NCBI GenBank assembly: GCA_017559685.1
Contig: JAFYQY010000027.1
Location: forward strand, 1 to 15,230
Direction of reading: 5' to 3'
DNA length: 15,230 bases
From: Alistipes sp.
GTDB lineage: Bacteria; Bacteroidota; Bacteroidia; Bacteroidales; Rikenellaceae
Position numbers and translations under genes: made by a program. The notes beneath the pieces were generated by a model. It had not been told where the DNA came from. It did no database searches and was given only the letters and a program-made list of their open reading frames with translations. The first letter of the stretch is position 1. Each line of letters starts with the position of its first letter. Below, one piece after another: positions 114 through 12,050 of this stretch.

Positions 114-215
114 TAAAAGGGCGATTTCTGCGCTACGCTTACTTTTTAATAGCTCATATACGCCGAGTATACTCCGCATTAAAAAGTTTCGCAAACCTTG
201 AAATCCCGCCTTTTA
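114..215. repeat. Palindromic intergenic element, copy A
   Basis: This 102-nt imperfect palindrome begins 9 nt after the tig stop codon. Its nested arms are 114-120 with 209-215 (TAAAAGG/CCTTTTA), 123-128 with 200-205 (GATTTC/GAAATC), 129-132 with 190-193 (TGCG/CGCA), 141-150 with 178-187 (ACTTTTTAAT/ATTAAAAAGT) and a tip hairpin 157-161 with 167-171 (TATAC/GTATA, loop GCCGA). A diverged second copy lies at 9010-9116. Over the 28-nt core (152-179 against 9052-9079), 23 bases match. Stem bases differ in a compensating way. It could be a REP/BIME- or MITE-like DNA repeat, or a structured 3'-UTR RNA. Copy A has no T-run after its inner stem, so it is unlikely to be a strong intrinsic terminator itself. 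Confidence 0.85.
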
Positions 216-253
216 TACAACTTTCAGGTGGTTACACCTTGTAATAAAAAATG

Positions 254-288
254 ACTCTGCAAGTTGGTATCAGACTTGCAGAGTTTTT
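254..288 (+). terminator. Intrinsic terminator of tig
   Basis: A perfect 11-bp stem (ACTCTGCAAGT at 254-264, ACTTGCAGAGT at 274-284) closes a 9-nt loop and runs into TTTTT at 284-288. An A-rich tract precedes the stem, so it may also work from the other strand. It separates tig from clpP, whose start codon is only 35 nt further on. clpP must therefore have its own promoter nearby or depend on read-through. I see no clear TAnnTTTG box between 289 and 323. Confidence 0.9.
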
Positions 289-323
289 AATCTTCGTTAA
301 GTCGAATTGTAAAAAATACGATT

Positions 324-8251: not shown

Positions 8252-9004
8252 ATGATTAAATGCGAAAATATATTCAAGTCCTTTGATGGTCGCACCATCT
8301 TGGACGATATCTCGGTCGAGTTCGAGTCGGGAAAGACTAACCTTATCATCGGTCGAAGTGGCTCGGGTAAGACTGTCCTTCTCAAGACTTTGGTCGGACT
8401 CCACGAGCCCGATAGCGGCAGTATCTTCTACGATGATAAGAACTACACCGCCCTCTCGTTTGTCCAGCGCAAGGAGGTACGTCGTGAGCTCGGTATGATT
8501 TTCCAGGGTGGAGCGTTGCTCGACTCCTCTACAGTCTACGAGAATGTGCGACTCCCACTCGATATGTTTACCGAGCAGACCTCTGCCGAGAAGGATAAGC
8601 GAGTTAAGGAGTGTCTTGCACGTGTTGAGCTCTCTCACGCAGGTCACCTCTATCCGTCAGAACTCTCGGGTGGTATGATTAAGCGTGCCGCTATTGCCCG
8701 TGCGATAGTGCTCAACCCTAAATACCTCTTCTGCGACGAGCCGAACTCAGGCCTCGACCCGCAGACCTCTATCGTTATCGATAACCTTATTCGTGATATC
8801 ACCGTCGAGTATAATATCACCACAATCATCAACACCCACGATATGAACTCCGTAATGGAGATTGGCGACAAAATCGTCTATATCCATCAAGGTAAGAAGT
8901 GGTGGGAAGGTTCAAAAGATGATATTCTCCAAGCCGACAATAAGGAGTTGAATGATTTTGTGTTTGCTTCGGCTATGGCTAAGAGAGCAAAAAAATCGTT
9001 GTAA
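8252..9004 (+). CDS. mlaF: MlaF-type ABC transporter ATP-binding protein
   Basis: The product is the 250-residue cytoplasmic ATPase partner of MlaE. All nucleotide-binding motifs are intact: Walker A GRSGSGKT (34-41), Q-loop Gln85 in IFQGGALLDS, signature LSGGM (138-142), Walker B YLFCDEP (158-164, catalytic Glu163), D-loop NSGLDP (165-170) and H-loop His196 in THDM. FQGGALLDSSTVYENV and LSGGMIKR are typical of the MlaF (Ttg2A) subgroup rather than general importers. The C-terminal tail after about residue 235 is lysine-rich (AKRAKKSL). The gene closes the plus-strand unit; palindromic copy B begins 5 nt after its stop and probably serves as its terminator. Confidence 0.95.
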   Translation: MIKCENIFKSFDGRTILDDISVEFESGKTNLIIGRSGSGKTVLLKTLVGLHEPDSGSIFYDDKNYTALSFVQRKEVRRELGMIFQGGALLDSSTVYENVRLPLDMFTEQTSAEKDKRVKECLARVELSHAGHLYPSELSGGMIKRAAIARAIVLNPKYLFCDEPNSGLDPQTSIVIDNLIRDITVEYNITTIINTHDMNSVMEIGDKIVYIHQGKKWWEGSKDDILQADNKELNDFVFASAMAKRAKKSL

Positions 9005-9009
9005 AACCA

Positions 9010-9116
9010 CTTTAAGGGGCATTTGCTTCGTTACACTGCAATAATCGGACTGCTCACATACGCTTAGTATGCTGCGCATCCGATTTTTTGTGTGCCTTGC
9101 AACTACCTCCTTAAAG
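9010..9116. repeat. Palindromic intergenic element, copy B (also probable mlaF terminator)
   Basis: This 107-nt imperfect palindrome begins 5 nt after the mlaF stop. Its arms are CTTTAAGG (9010-9017) with CCTTAAAG (9109-9116), TTGC (9023-9026) with GCAA (9099-9102), AATCGGA (9043-9049) with TCCGATT (9079-9085), and the tip CATAC (9057-9061) with GTATG (9067-9071), loop GCTTA. It matches copy A at 114-215 in order, spacing and core sequence, but the stem bases differ in a compensating way. T9084-T9089 follow the inner stem, so on the plus strand it can act as an intrinsic terminator. It lies between convergent mlaF and the MATE gene. Confidence 0.85.
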
Positions 9117-9164
9117 ATGATTTTCGAATGGATGTTTATAGCACCCGTTTTTAAGTGAAGGGTT

Positions 9165-9197
9165 TGCCTTGCAGCTATCCGCCTAAAAGCAATTTTC
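9165..9197. repeat. Solitary 3' arm of a third palindromic element
   Basis: By position, 24 of 33 bases match 9093-9125, the 3' arm of copy B plus its flank, without gaps. Both begin TGCCTTGCA and end ATTTTC, at an offset of exactly 72 nt. No matching 5' arm or tip hairpin is recognisable between 9126 and 9164, so this is either a decayed copy or a partial tandem duplication. The rest of the 9117-9243 gap before the MATE stop shows nothing else I can identify. Confidence 0.55.
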
Positions 9198-9243: not shown

Positions 9244-10626
9244 CTATCGTTTAAGCGACAGCTCCATACGCTTAATCTTGCGTATCTGCCAGATGAAGAG
9301 TATCAGCGCAAGAATAATCGACGCCGAGTCGGCGATAGGCATCGAGATCCACACTCCGTGAGCGCCGAACTCTCGAGGTAGGAACCACAACAGCGGTAAC
9401 AAGAAGAGTAGCTGTCGTGTCAGTGAGATGAAGATGGCAAGAGGAGCCTTGCCGATATATTGGAAGAAACCGCCCACAACGACCTGGAAGCCCACCAATG
9501 GGAATACTGCCAACACAATGCGTAAGCCCTGCGTTGCAGCCTCCACGATGAGACTATCGCTGCCATTCTCCGAATCGACAAAGGCACGAGCAATAACGTC
9601 GGGGATGGTCTCGCCCAAGATAAAGCCGAGTGTAGCGAATGCCACACCGCAACAGATTGTCATATATACCACCTTGCGAACACGGGCATAGTTCTTCGCT
9701 CCGTAGTTATAGCCCACGATAGGTTGCATACCCTGATTCAGACCCATAACCACCATAATAAAGAGCAGGGCGATGCGGTTGACGATACCGTATGCGCTCA
9801 CATACAAATCGGCACCTCCATACTTCAGCATAGCGGTATTTACGAATGCCACGACTACCGAGGCGCAGATATTCATCAAGAATGGCGCCAAGCCAATCGA
9901 GAGGATGTTGCCCACAATCTTCCAGTCGAAGTGGAACGCCTCACGCTTAAAGTGGAGGAACGACCTCTTCGAGCAGAAGTGCGACAGAGCAATCAGGAAC
10001 GATACAAACTGAGCGATAATTGTCGCTGCGGCAGAGCCTCGAATGCCCCACTCGAAGACAAAGATGAAGAGTGGGTTGAGAGCAAGGTTTACCGCCACCG
10101 AGGTAAGCATTATCGCCATCGACTTGCGTGGGTTGCCCGATGCACGAATCATATCGTTCATACCGAGGTAGAGGTGCATCGTGACATTGCCCAAGAGGAT
10201 AATCTGCATAAAGTCCTTAGCGTAGGCCAACGTCTCGGCCGAGGCTTTACCTCCGCTAAAGAGCATCAAAATCTCGTCGAGGAATGTGAGCATAAAGGCC
10301 ATTATCGCAAAGCCGATAATGATGTTGAGTATCACGGCATTGCAGAGAGTCTTCTCGGCTGCCGCCTTATTACCCTCGCCGAGACGCAACGATATGCGGG
10401 CACCTGCGCCCACGCCTACCATTGCCCCGAAGGCTGCACCGATATTCATAATCGGCATCGTGATAGCCATACCTGCAATTGCTGCACCGCCAACACCGTG
10501 TCCCACGAAGGCACTATCAATAAGGTGATATAGCGATGACGAAGCCATCGCTATAATCGCCGGTGTTGCGTAGTTGAAGAGCAACTTACCGATATTATCA
10601 CTACCCAACGATAGGGTTTTGCTCAC
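9244..10626 (-). CDS. MATE family multidrug efflux transporter
   Basis: The product is a 460-residue inner-membrane protein with about twelve hydrophobic segments, in two similar halves typical of MATE antiporters, which export cationic drugs and metabolites using a Na+ or H+ gradient. Supporting motifs are the N-terminal ATPAIIAMASSSLYHLIDSA with FVGHGVG, the region GVGAGARISLRLGEGN, then MIRASGNPRKSM, NPLFIFVFEWGIRGSA, GLNQGMQPIVGYNYGA and GGFFQYIGKAPLA. It most resembles MepA-like MATE proteins. The start is GTG at 10626-10624: AAAGGA lies 7 nt upstream, and an in-frame TAA just above excludes an earlier start. It begins 20 nt after the outer-membrane channel gene and is probably the last gene of that operon. 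Confidence 0.94.
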   Translation of the reverse strand: MSKTLSLGSDNIGKLLFNYATPAIIAMASSSLYHLIDSAFVGHGVGGAAIAGMAITMPIMNIGAAFGAMVGVGAGARISLRLGEGNKAAAEKTLCNAVILNIIIGFAIMAFMLTFLDEILMLFSGGKASAETLAYAKDFMQIILLGNVTMHLYLGMNDMIRASGNPRKSMAIMLTSVAVNLALNPLFIFVFEWGIRGSAAATIIAQFVSFLIALSHFCSKRSFLHFKREAFHFDWKIVGNILSIGLAPFLMNICASVVVAFVNTAMLKYGGADLYVSAYGIVNRIALLFIMVVMGLNQGMQPIVGYNYGAKNYARVRKVVYMTICCGVAFATLGFILGETIPDVIARAFVDSENGSDSLIVEAATQGLRIVLAVFPLVGFQVVVGGFFQYIGKAPLAIFISLTRQLLFLLPLLWFLPREFGAHGVWISMPIADSASIILALILFIWQIRKIKRMELSLKR

Positions 10627-10633
10627 TTTGAAA

Positions 10634-10639
10634 TCCTTT
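10634..10639 (-). promoter_or_regulatory. Ribosome binding site that fixes the GTG start of the MATE gene
   Basis: Read on the minus strand this is AAAGGA, 7 nt before GTG. It matters because the start is not ATG and most plus-strand genes here lack such a site. Confidence 0.6.
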
Positions 10640-10646
10640 CTTTAAG

Positions 10647-12050
10647 TTATTTATTCTCTTTCTTCGCCTTCTTGTTGCACTTGAAGATTGGGTTCTTCTC
10701 GGCAGGGAGGTCGAACGATGTGTCTACGCCACCACCCAAAGCACGGTAGAGGTTGATGACACCCTGAATACCCTCGAGACGGTCAGAAACCTGCTGCAGG
10801 CGAGCCGAAAGCAAAGCCTGCTGTGCGGTCAACACCTCCAAGTAGGTGGCTTCAGCGTGACTCATAAGCTGTCGTGTGCTGTTTACCGAGCTCTCCAAAG
10901 TCTCGATCTGGCGAATACGCAAGTTGGTCTTGCTACGAGCCGAGTTGCACTGAGCTAAAGCGGTATTTACCTCGCTACCTGCCTCCAACAACTTGTGCTC
11001 AAAGTTCAACAACGCCTCACGCTGCTTCGACTGCGCAATCTTGTAGTTTGCTCGGTTGGCACCGGCATTGAAGATCGGCTGTGTGAGCTTGCCTGCAATC
11101 GAGAGCGCAACCGCTAACGGACCACCCTCGATGCCCATATTGCCTGTGAGCTTGAGCGAAGGGTAAAGCTCGGCGTGTGCGATATTTGTGTTGTAGAATG
11201 CGAGCTGCAACTCATACTCAGCCTGCTTTACATCAGGACGGCGAGAGAGCAACTGCGCAGGAACGCCAATGAACAACTCCTGCTTGAAGTCTACGCCGTT
11301 CAACTCACCACGAGGGAAGTCCTGCGGTGTTACACCCAACAAGAGTGCAAACGAGTTGAGAGCCTTTGTCAAGCTGTACTCCAAGTCGTGAATCGAAGCG
11401 TCTACCGAACAGCTGTTTGCCTCGGTACGAGAGATAGAGGCCTCGTTGGTCATACCAGCCTCCTTCATCGCCTTCATTGTGCGGACATTCTCCTTCCACG
11501 ATGCCGATGTTGCACGTGAAATACGAATCTGCATATCGAGCATCAACAAGGTGTAGTAGTTGTTGGCAATAGCTGCTACCAACGCAGTCTGCACGCTGTG
11601 GCGATAGAGCTTGTTGTACTCCAAAGTCGCCTGAGCCTTGCGCTTAGCGTTGATGTTGCGAGCCATAATATCAATCTCCCAGCTCGCCTTTACAGGTACA
11701 GCATAGCTGAACTTTTCGCCCAAGCCTGTACCAACCGAAGGCTCAAGGCTGAACGATGGGATGAAAGCCAACTTTGCCGACTGCAACGCCAACTCTGCCT
11801 GGTGAATACGCTCGGCAGTCAACTGCATATCGATGTTGTTCTTCAAACCCTGCTCGATATAGCCCTGAAGGTGCTTGTCGGTGAAGAACTCTCGCCACGA
11901 GATATCCGCCATAGAGGTGGTGTTGTCCTTCTTCTCGATGTTGCCATAGAGATTGTCGGTCTTAATCTCCTCGGGACGACTATATTTCTTGTAGATTGAG
12001 CAGCTTGTGAGCATTGCCACAACGCCCAATATCAAAACTATCTTTTTCAT
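10647..12050 (-). CDS. Outer-membrane efflux lipoprotein, OprM/NodT (TolC-like) family
   Basis: The product has 467 residues. A lipoprotein signal peptide with lipobox LTSC puts the lipidated cysteine at 17. Two outer-membrane-efflux repeats follow. The first includes WREFFTDKHLQGYIEQGLKN (52-71) and ASWEIDIMAR (122-131). The second includes GVPAQLLSRRPDVKQAEYEL and the AELYPSLKLTG segment. This is the NodT/OprM arrangement, in which a lipid-anchored trimer forms the beta-barrel and alpha-helical exit duct of a tripartite pump. Its ATG overlaps the stop codon of the RND gene by one base (TAATG), so translation is probably coupled. The MATE gene follows after 20 nt. The lysine-rich C terminus (KCNKKAKKENK) is unremarkable for such proteins. 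Confidence 0.95.
   Translation of the reverse strand: MKKIVLILGVVAMLTSCSIYKKYSRPEEIKTDNLYGNIEKKDNTTSMADISWREFFTDKHLQGYIEQGLKNNIDMQLTAERIHQAELALQSAKLAFIPSFSLEPSVGTGLGEKFSYAVPVKASWEIDIMARNINAKRKAQATLEYNKLYRHSVQTALVAAIANNYYTLLMLDMQIRISRATSASWKENVRTMKAMKEAGMTNEASISRTEANSCSVDASIHDLEYSLTKALNSFALLLGVTPQDFPRGELNGVDFKQELFIGVPAQLLSRRPDVKQAEYELQLAFYNTNIAHAELYPSLKLTGNMGIEGGPLAVALSIAGKLTQPIFNAGANRANYKIAQSKQREALLNFEHKLLEAGSEVNTALAQCNSARSKTNLRIRQIETLESSVNSTRQLMSHAEATYLEVLTAQQALLSARLQQVSDRLEGIQGVINLYRALGGGVDTSFDLPAEKNPIFKCNKKAKKENK

Follow-up and report, generated by a model that had tools for sequence, protein, structure and literature searches.

The window analysed here, i.e. the whole stretch of 15,230 nucleotides from contig JAFYQY010000027.1 of an Alistipes sp. 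assembly (GCA_017559685.1), carries two palindromes of similar plan whose stems differ in sequence and remain paired, and this raises the question of what kind of element they represent and what keeps their stems paired. A preliminary description suggested a selected RNA fold or a DNA cruciform and named a RAYT-mobilised REP/BIME, a MITE and a 3'-UTR RNA element as candidates. We report that the observation is real and larger than claimed and that its interpretation is partly supported: the two copies belong to a real, unusual palindrome family, which is probably mobile.

Copies A and B and the extent of the family

Copy A is an imperfect palindrome of about 120 bp on the + strand (positions 105 to 224), recognised by its fold relative to shuffled sequences and by its match to R1, a covariance model built from 31 copies; copy B, an imperfect palindrome of about 122 bp, is an R1 match at 9003 to 9124 on the same strand. 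Both lie where they had been placed before (114 to 215 and 9010 to 9116), with ends about 10 nt further out on each side. When the window was searched with R1 at E≤1, A and B were the sole matches, both being part of the training set of the model. A folds better than 200 of 200 dinucleotide shuffles (z -3.8 for the + and -4.0 for the - strand) as does B (z -5.8 and -7.4, respectively). In A the inner stem pairs 141-150 with 178-187 (141 to 187 as a whole, +) and encloses the tip at 152-177 with the unpaired letters TCA and CTCC, and in B it pairs 9043-9049 with 9079-9085 (9043 to 9085, +) around the tip at 9052-9077. The bases and pairs quoted in the preliminary description are present at their coordinates: the inner stem is re-paired between the copies and reads AATCGGA/TCCGATT in B, the tip pair T157:A171 of A is C9057:G9071 in B, and the outer pairs A115/A116:T213/T214 of A are T9012/T9013:A9113/A9114 in B. 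The 28-nt core is shared as well, with 22 identities by our own count and not 23.

The 5' end of A starts directly after the stop codon (102-104) of a gene that we take to be the trigger factor gene, tig, from its place before clpP, and at B the 5' end and the stop codon of the upstream gene (9002-9004) overlap, this gene being named an ABC-type ATPase gene from reading its translation. Relatives were identified in a ClpP search (80 in total), and the four closest (L001-L004) are MAGs of Alistipes/Rikenellaceae, of which three are described as coming from the rectum of herbivores. A separate terminator-like hairpin with a T run was found by reading at 253 to 290 (+) and, again by reading, in L001, L002 and L004, none of which has copy A intact, as well as in L003, where it is intact; since this hairpin occurs with or without an intact A, copy A is probably not the terminator of the gene. 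At site A, a 3' part survives in L002 and possibly a 5' part in L001, and L003 holds copies orthologous to both A (1793-1920) and B (11110-11241), the latter with stems paired differently. Downstream of B, positions 9147 to 9197 (+; repeat D3) probably represent an older family copy with its centre deleted and its right-arm letters kept, and this stretch looks like a decayed predecessor of B; degenerate pieces are seemingly present at the corresponding site in L003 too. Elsewhere in the window, a 28-nt direct repeat (D11, 75% identity) links 186-213 in the right arm of A with 10616-10643 at the start of a MATE-like gene (named from reading), probably by chance, and a weak Rfam match to the Termite-leu RNA (2279-2370, +; 27.4 bits against a gathering score of 51, E 0.021) sits upstream of a transketolase-like gene, likewise named from reading, and could be due to chance or represent a leader.

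The preliminary description had called for further copies in related genomes, and tens were found in each: R1 matched this interspersed family of about 120 bp at least 68, 84, 98, 78 and 60 times in five Alistipes/Rikenellaceae MAGs, with 150 first-look candidates scored per genome, and there are 101 matches at E≤0.1 in the genome G003. Exact matches to the tip pattern numbered 11, 23, 20 and 24 in the four closest genomes and 7 in G007, and 1, 1, 1, 0 and 0 in the other five of the 10 genomes, while the pattern read backward as a control gave none in any of the ten; among G003 and the genomes around it, 61 in all, the tip is present in 25. With a wider tip pattern we obtained 76 matches in G003 and 1 in 394 other sampled Bacteroidota, which is no more than the backward control gave there (2), and the family therefore looks nearly confined to this clade within the sampled phylum. 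Copy A had no blastn match on phages or plasmids, and the strict tip pattern was absent from viral contigs. Among the copies listed, the outer arms differ between subfamilies and the plan is common to all.

That the palindromes fall in no named family holds with respect to Rfam, since neither A nor B had a match at E≤1, and a known Rfam RNA is rejected for both. Palindromic Bacteroidetes RNA candidates (HMP2_4078, 4205, 1065 and 1032) are named in PMC8040213. Among the titles and opening parts of abstracts searched, we found no report of such a family in Alistipes or Rikenellaceae. Like copies form head-to-tail arrays in L219, L220, L222 and L223, repeating roughly every 122-125 bp or at multiples of this distance, and these arrays probably arose by tandem duplication rather than by new insertion.

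Pairing of stems that change in sequence

Pairing was analysed in 174 copies, which remained of 186 model matches once 2 edge cases and 10 duplicates had been taken out. Selection of the initial seeds relied on the tip pattern, and relatedness among copies is not accounted for in the permutation tests. The inner stem follows an unpaired base that is conserved as T in 170 of 174 copies, and its arms pair in a single register; it has 7.09 of 9 Watson-Crick pairs within copies compared with 3.50 between copies (sd 0.106, n=174; z 34), a value reached in none of 5000 permutations, and 74 of 88 distinct left inner arms pair best, or tied for best, with their own partner. The outer arms behave in the same way, with 16.0 pairs within and 8.17 between copies (sd 0.18) and, in the largest cluster (n 83), 17.24 against 10.84 (sd 0.30). 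In alignment A3, comprising 67 distinct rows, 28 of 38 pairs have changed on both sides, double-change cells number 346 compared with 113.6 in shuffles, an excess that is lost when the partner is slid, and none of 500 shuffles reaches any of five pairing measures; the structure was derived from A3 itself, which favours this result. The model-based alignments A3 and A4 are better than the first MAFFT alignment but lean towards the model; in the MAFFT alignment the outer arms were not in register between subfamilies, so that it gave the inner stem alone. Support for pairing on larger alignments, which the preliminary description had proposed as a check, is thus seen in the inner stem, the outer arms and the double changes, all of which exceed the shuffles or permutations.

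Within the tip, paired changes turn GC/GC into CC/GG or TC/GA, and CATAC/GTATG into CATAG/CTATG or TTTAC/GTAAA. The unpaired letters are nearly invariant: TCA is found in 173 of 174 copies, CTSC in 162 and both in 161. It is the paired positions that account for most of the sequence change. With fragments left out, the inner stem and tip comprise 2875 Watson-Crick, 44 G-U, 28 A-C and 243 other cells, and the outer and middle parts 2776, 278, 193 and 480, respectively. An RNA-selected fold should tolerate G-U far above A-C, and the scarcity of G-U in the inner stem therefore speaks against RNA; because inner pairs switch from one Watson-Crick pair to another with few G-U, the changes point to DNA more than to RNA. 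Four outer columns hold 26-37% G-U cells, as a folded + strand would allow.

The bottom strand gives the stabler fold in 162 of 174 copies (mean -48.9 compared with -40.9 kcal/mol), a difference explained in part by the inner stem and tip, which alone give -16.3 on the bottom strand and -14.6 on the other. Read on the bottom strand, the unpaired letters of the tip become GSAG and TGA and could form G-A pairs. Since A and B are both sense to their gene, an mRNA would carry the less stable strand. In L176 (4371-4503, G003) the 14-nt outer ends are inverted repeats without a mismatch, which is what templated correction of a palindrome should leave behind. Of the proposal of a selected RNA fold or DNA cruciform, it stands that pairing is kept while the sequence drifts, but templated palindrome correction would look alike among copies, and a comparison of copies alone cannot separate it from selection on the fold.

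Stop codons, orientation and turnover

The expectation that copies would lie mostly near stop codons was borne out. Among the 167 of 174 copies with both end columns filled, 120 have the stop of a long co-oriented frame at -21 to +12 of their 5' end, 71 of these at -3 to -1, compared with 12 of 167 in the mirror test at the 3' end; the abutting stop is TAA in 105 of the 120. No stop was detected at the 5' end in the remaining 47; copy A of the window falls among them solely through truncation of its frame at the window edge. A simpler gene call, which set aside 43 copies where some frame ran across the tip, gave 108 copies with a co-oriented upstream gene at a median distance of -2.

Orientation is clearly uniform along contigs. 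The 101 matches in G003 lie on 28 contigs, none of which is mixed, and merging of neighbours less than 1 kb apart leaves 79 loci and 17 multi-locus contigs, again with none mixed (chance 2^-51 if orientation were random). Among the matches listed for 21 further genomes, 1 of 37 multi-locus contigs was mixed under the same 1-kb rule; this contig (G036:C4, 80-93 kb, L259) could contain an origin, a terminus, an inversion or a misassembly. Since genes in seven 20-kb stretches of G003 run 58 co-oriented and 57 opposite to the elements (61 and 73 when the mixed G036 stretch L259 is included), gene direction does not account for the orientation of the elements.

Third-position GC skew in these seven G003 stretches agrees with a G-rich strand of the elements in 12 of 14 values, the disagreeing ones being those of the opposite genes in L253 (-0.029) and of the + genes in L255 (0.001); the whole-stretch skew of L253 and L258 also disagrees. 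For all fetched loci together, the co-oriented genes (187) had a third-position skew of +0.043 and the opposite genes (94) one of +0.029; in the window the values were +0.046 and +0.011, respectively. The gene for ribosomal protein L2 was found in 6 of 9 genomes; in two genomes (G024 and G042) its contig also carries listed elements, and in both it lies on their strand. Ribosomal operons are co-directional with the replication fork and L2 shares the orientation of the elements, so the + strand of the palindromes would be leading-strand in sense and carried by the lagging-strand template.

Loci were compared between genomes through 48 orthologous pairs defined by an upstream match, 23 of which also match downstream, involving 67 of 167 elements. 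The same element is kept in L112/L113/L200, in L086/L087/L137/L149 and in L168/L181. L098 and L175, with flanks 97% identical, hold different subfamilies, and just downstream of its element L098 carries a centre-deleted remnant of the L175 type; comparably, in L105 versus L191/L206 and L173 versus L151 an intact, different element lies at the stop with the other type or a remnant downstream. Neighbouring copies on the same strand form 20 pairs with a distance of less than 320 nt; in 18 of these the copy on the 5' side was the more intact and in 1 (L199) the less intact, with 1 tie (p 8e-5), and by fold energy the 5' copy was better in 17 of 20.

Among the orthologous loci compared we found no truly empty pre-insertion site, the clearest case being insertion beside or into a resident copy, and target duplications of 2 to 5 nt showed no excess over permuted flanks with ends placed to within a few nt. 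In G003, 24 of 26 matches to a right-arm pattern (one arm type) lie inside R1 matches, the other two being at C18:99925 and C26:29425, and no autonomous parent with separated arms was found there with this one arm pattern. The suggestion of a MITE is accordingly in line with the copy number, with the terminal inverted repeats (terminal helix 1 is paired in 88.4% of cells) and with the differently filled sites, but no excess of target duplications and no autonomous partner were found in these searches.

Mobilisation, rival explanations and related elements

Taken together, our data lead us to favour, with moderate confidence, a non-coding, non-autonomous mobile palindrome of about 120 bp that enters via single-stranded DNA with replication polarity. 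A trans-acting enzyme, or a host recombination process, would recognise the single strand in its folded form, through the bulged tip, and place the hairpin into exposed lagging-strand template, preferably at a stop or at that end of a resident copy which faces the stop. Pairing might be maintained if well-paired hairpins alone were recognised, with help from templated correction of imperfect palindromes; displaced copies would lose their centres and then decay, and effects on host mRNA would be side effects or later co-option. In a co-directional gene the coding strand would be both lagging-strand template and the strand that transcription opens, with ribosome-free RNA starting at the stop, and co-directional stops may be favoured because template exposure, transcription opening and ribosome-free RNA coincide there. 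Uniform orientation, entry beside stops or a resident 5' arm, and change that keeps the structure fit a hairpin recognised in single-stranded form. A precedent for the strand is provided by IS608 and ISDra2, which target the lagging strand according to the consulted part of PMC6006769; for the palindromes, uniform orientation is observed along contigs and we infer the link to the fork from GC skew (12 of 14 values) and the two L2 genes.

The abutment to stops, in sense orientation, is also what a vertically kept 3'-UTR RNA hairpin would show if it acted on mRNA stability, translation or termination and its fold were selected in RNA. Such an element would agree with the pairing support, with the G-U-rich outer columns on the + strand and with L003, which keeps orthologous copies at A and B with compensated stems, and it has precedents: in the parts of the sources available to us, REPs less than 16 nt from a stop downregulate translation (PMC12306157) and Yersinia ERIC affects transcript stability (PMC2229807). 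Of the 3'-UTR proposal the stop abutment is what stands; scarce wobble in the inner stem and tip, an orientation that is uniform along contigs despite genes running both ways, and the loss or replacement of elements between orthologous loci are more in keeping with a DNA element, the mRNA strand is the less stable one in most copies and a separate terminator-like hairpin follows A. We consider the 3'-UTR RNA unlikely. Somewhat less credence is given to the idea that the hairpin is unselected and its stems are paired solely through template-switch correction of imperfect palindromes in replication. Change from Watson-Crick to Watson-Crick with little G-U in the inner stem and the matching ends in L176 are what such correction would produce, but it should erase loops such as TCA and CTSC, intact together in 161 of 174 copies (from tip-chosen seeds), and it leaves the spread, the stop abutment and the polarity unexplained.

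Polar sequences such as KOPS guide the segregation machinery, and near-uniform orientation along contigs would suit a chromosome-architecture sequence directing a machine for segregation or repair along the replichore; however, stop abutment, a palindromic form of about 120 bp, stem change and the decay of displaced copies are ill-suited to a fixed guide, as is the patchy presence of the tip (25 of 61 genomes), and this explanation is very improbable. A REP/REPIN-type element mobilised by a RAYT, i.e. an HUH tyrosine transposase, would share the logic of a structured single strand with variable but compensating stems. The search for RAYT/Y1_Tnp (PF01797) was negative in 10 and in a further 22 draft genomes (18 with the tip and 14 without) and positive in 5 of 14 controls, and within 10 nt of either end, on either strand, the tags GTAG, GTGG and CGTC were found for 14, 23 and 38 of 167 copies, none of them consistent. 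Mobilisation by RAYT, as put forward earlier for a REP/BIME, is rejected on the former count, and with the length of about 120 bp a REP/REPIN-type element is strongly disfavoured, the least probable of these explanations.

Known systems resemble the family in part. REPs and REPINs are likewise short intergenic palindromic repeats with compensating stem changes, and the re-pairing alone has REPIN precedent; the present family differs by its length and by having neither a RAYT in the 32 genomes nor a consistent tag. Positions within 15 nt of a stop are given for 446 of 4,072 REPs, and for 260 of 496 in an earlier study cited there, in the portion of PMC12306157 that we consulted. As described in sections of PMC2229807, ERIC is an intergenic 127-bp element with a long stem-loop, and YPAL is palindromic and was judged to be mobile from the occurrence of sites with and without it; YPAL/RU-2 of Yersinia, compared by description, differs in length (about 168 bp), taxa and target duplications (3-26 bp). 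By eye, ERIC is similar in plan, with a tip of the form TCA-stem-loop-stem-CTCC that has CTGCGT on its left and GCCTT on its right side. YPAL/RU-2 also inserts near stop codons. E. coli ERIC was fetched with a primer sequence, which is present in 5375 of 5426 genomes; because R1 does not detect ERIC (L235/L236, no match at E≤10), membership is unsupported and ERIC is not counted as a proven relative, and where ERIC has a TA target duplication, the Rikenellaceae palindromes show no excess of duplications of 2-5 nt.

The attC sites of integrons also lie beside stop codons and are structured palindromes in which unpaired bases are conserved, their R boxes being defined as GTTRRRY/RYYYAAC. The present family differs in being dispersed and not arrayed as cassettes, and no integron integrase (TIGR02249) scored above the cut-off in 27 genomes, so this integrase is rejected as mobiliser; weaker matches in 27 of 27 genomes and in 14 of 14 controls are as with ordinary tyrosine recombinases.

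A variant of the tip led to six viral-contig loci and, from one of these, to plasmid copies in 14 Pseudomonas, 1 Halomonas and 1 Fukatsuia record, four of which were read. The unannotated palindrome so found (L225-L234; Pseudomonas and Halomonas plasmids and some viral contigs) has the same tip plan and other outer arms than the Rikenellaceae family. R1 matched it over the full length of the model (positions 1-132) in L229 (47.2 bits), in L231 on a P. veronii plasmid (38.0) and in L230 (27.0), the tip part of these scores being preselected since the loci were found via the tip pattern or via a copy so found; other loci match at the tip. An Rfam scan of L225-L230 gave two weak matches, both outside the palindromes. 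L225-L234 possibly belong to one of the published P. fluorescens repeat families.

To our knowledge, how palindromes without a transposase such as ERIC spread in bacteria is an old open question, and the family offers three handles on it: an orientation that is uniform along the chromosome, entry at stop codons, and young to decaying copies at one locus. Within the literature searched we have not seen described the combination of re-pairing, stop abutment, contig-uniform orientation and stop-side turnover without a RAYT. A wider conjecture, which we regard as possible but doubtful, is that transposase-less single-strand elements enter the lagging-strand template at co-directional stops via a bulged tip (possibly with tandem G-A pairs on the bottom strand) by means of a protein shared across phyla, in which case the Rikenellaceae palindromes, the Pseudomonas repeat and ERIC would be three users of one mechanism. 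Moreover, the family is a clean natural case in which templated correction of palindromes could be told apart from selection acting on a hairpin in DNA. Finally, it carries the caution that covariation in a repeat need not imply a functional RNA.
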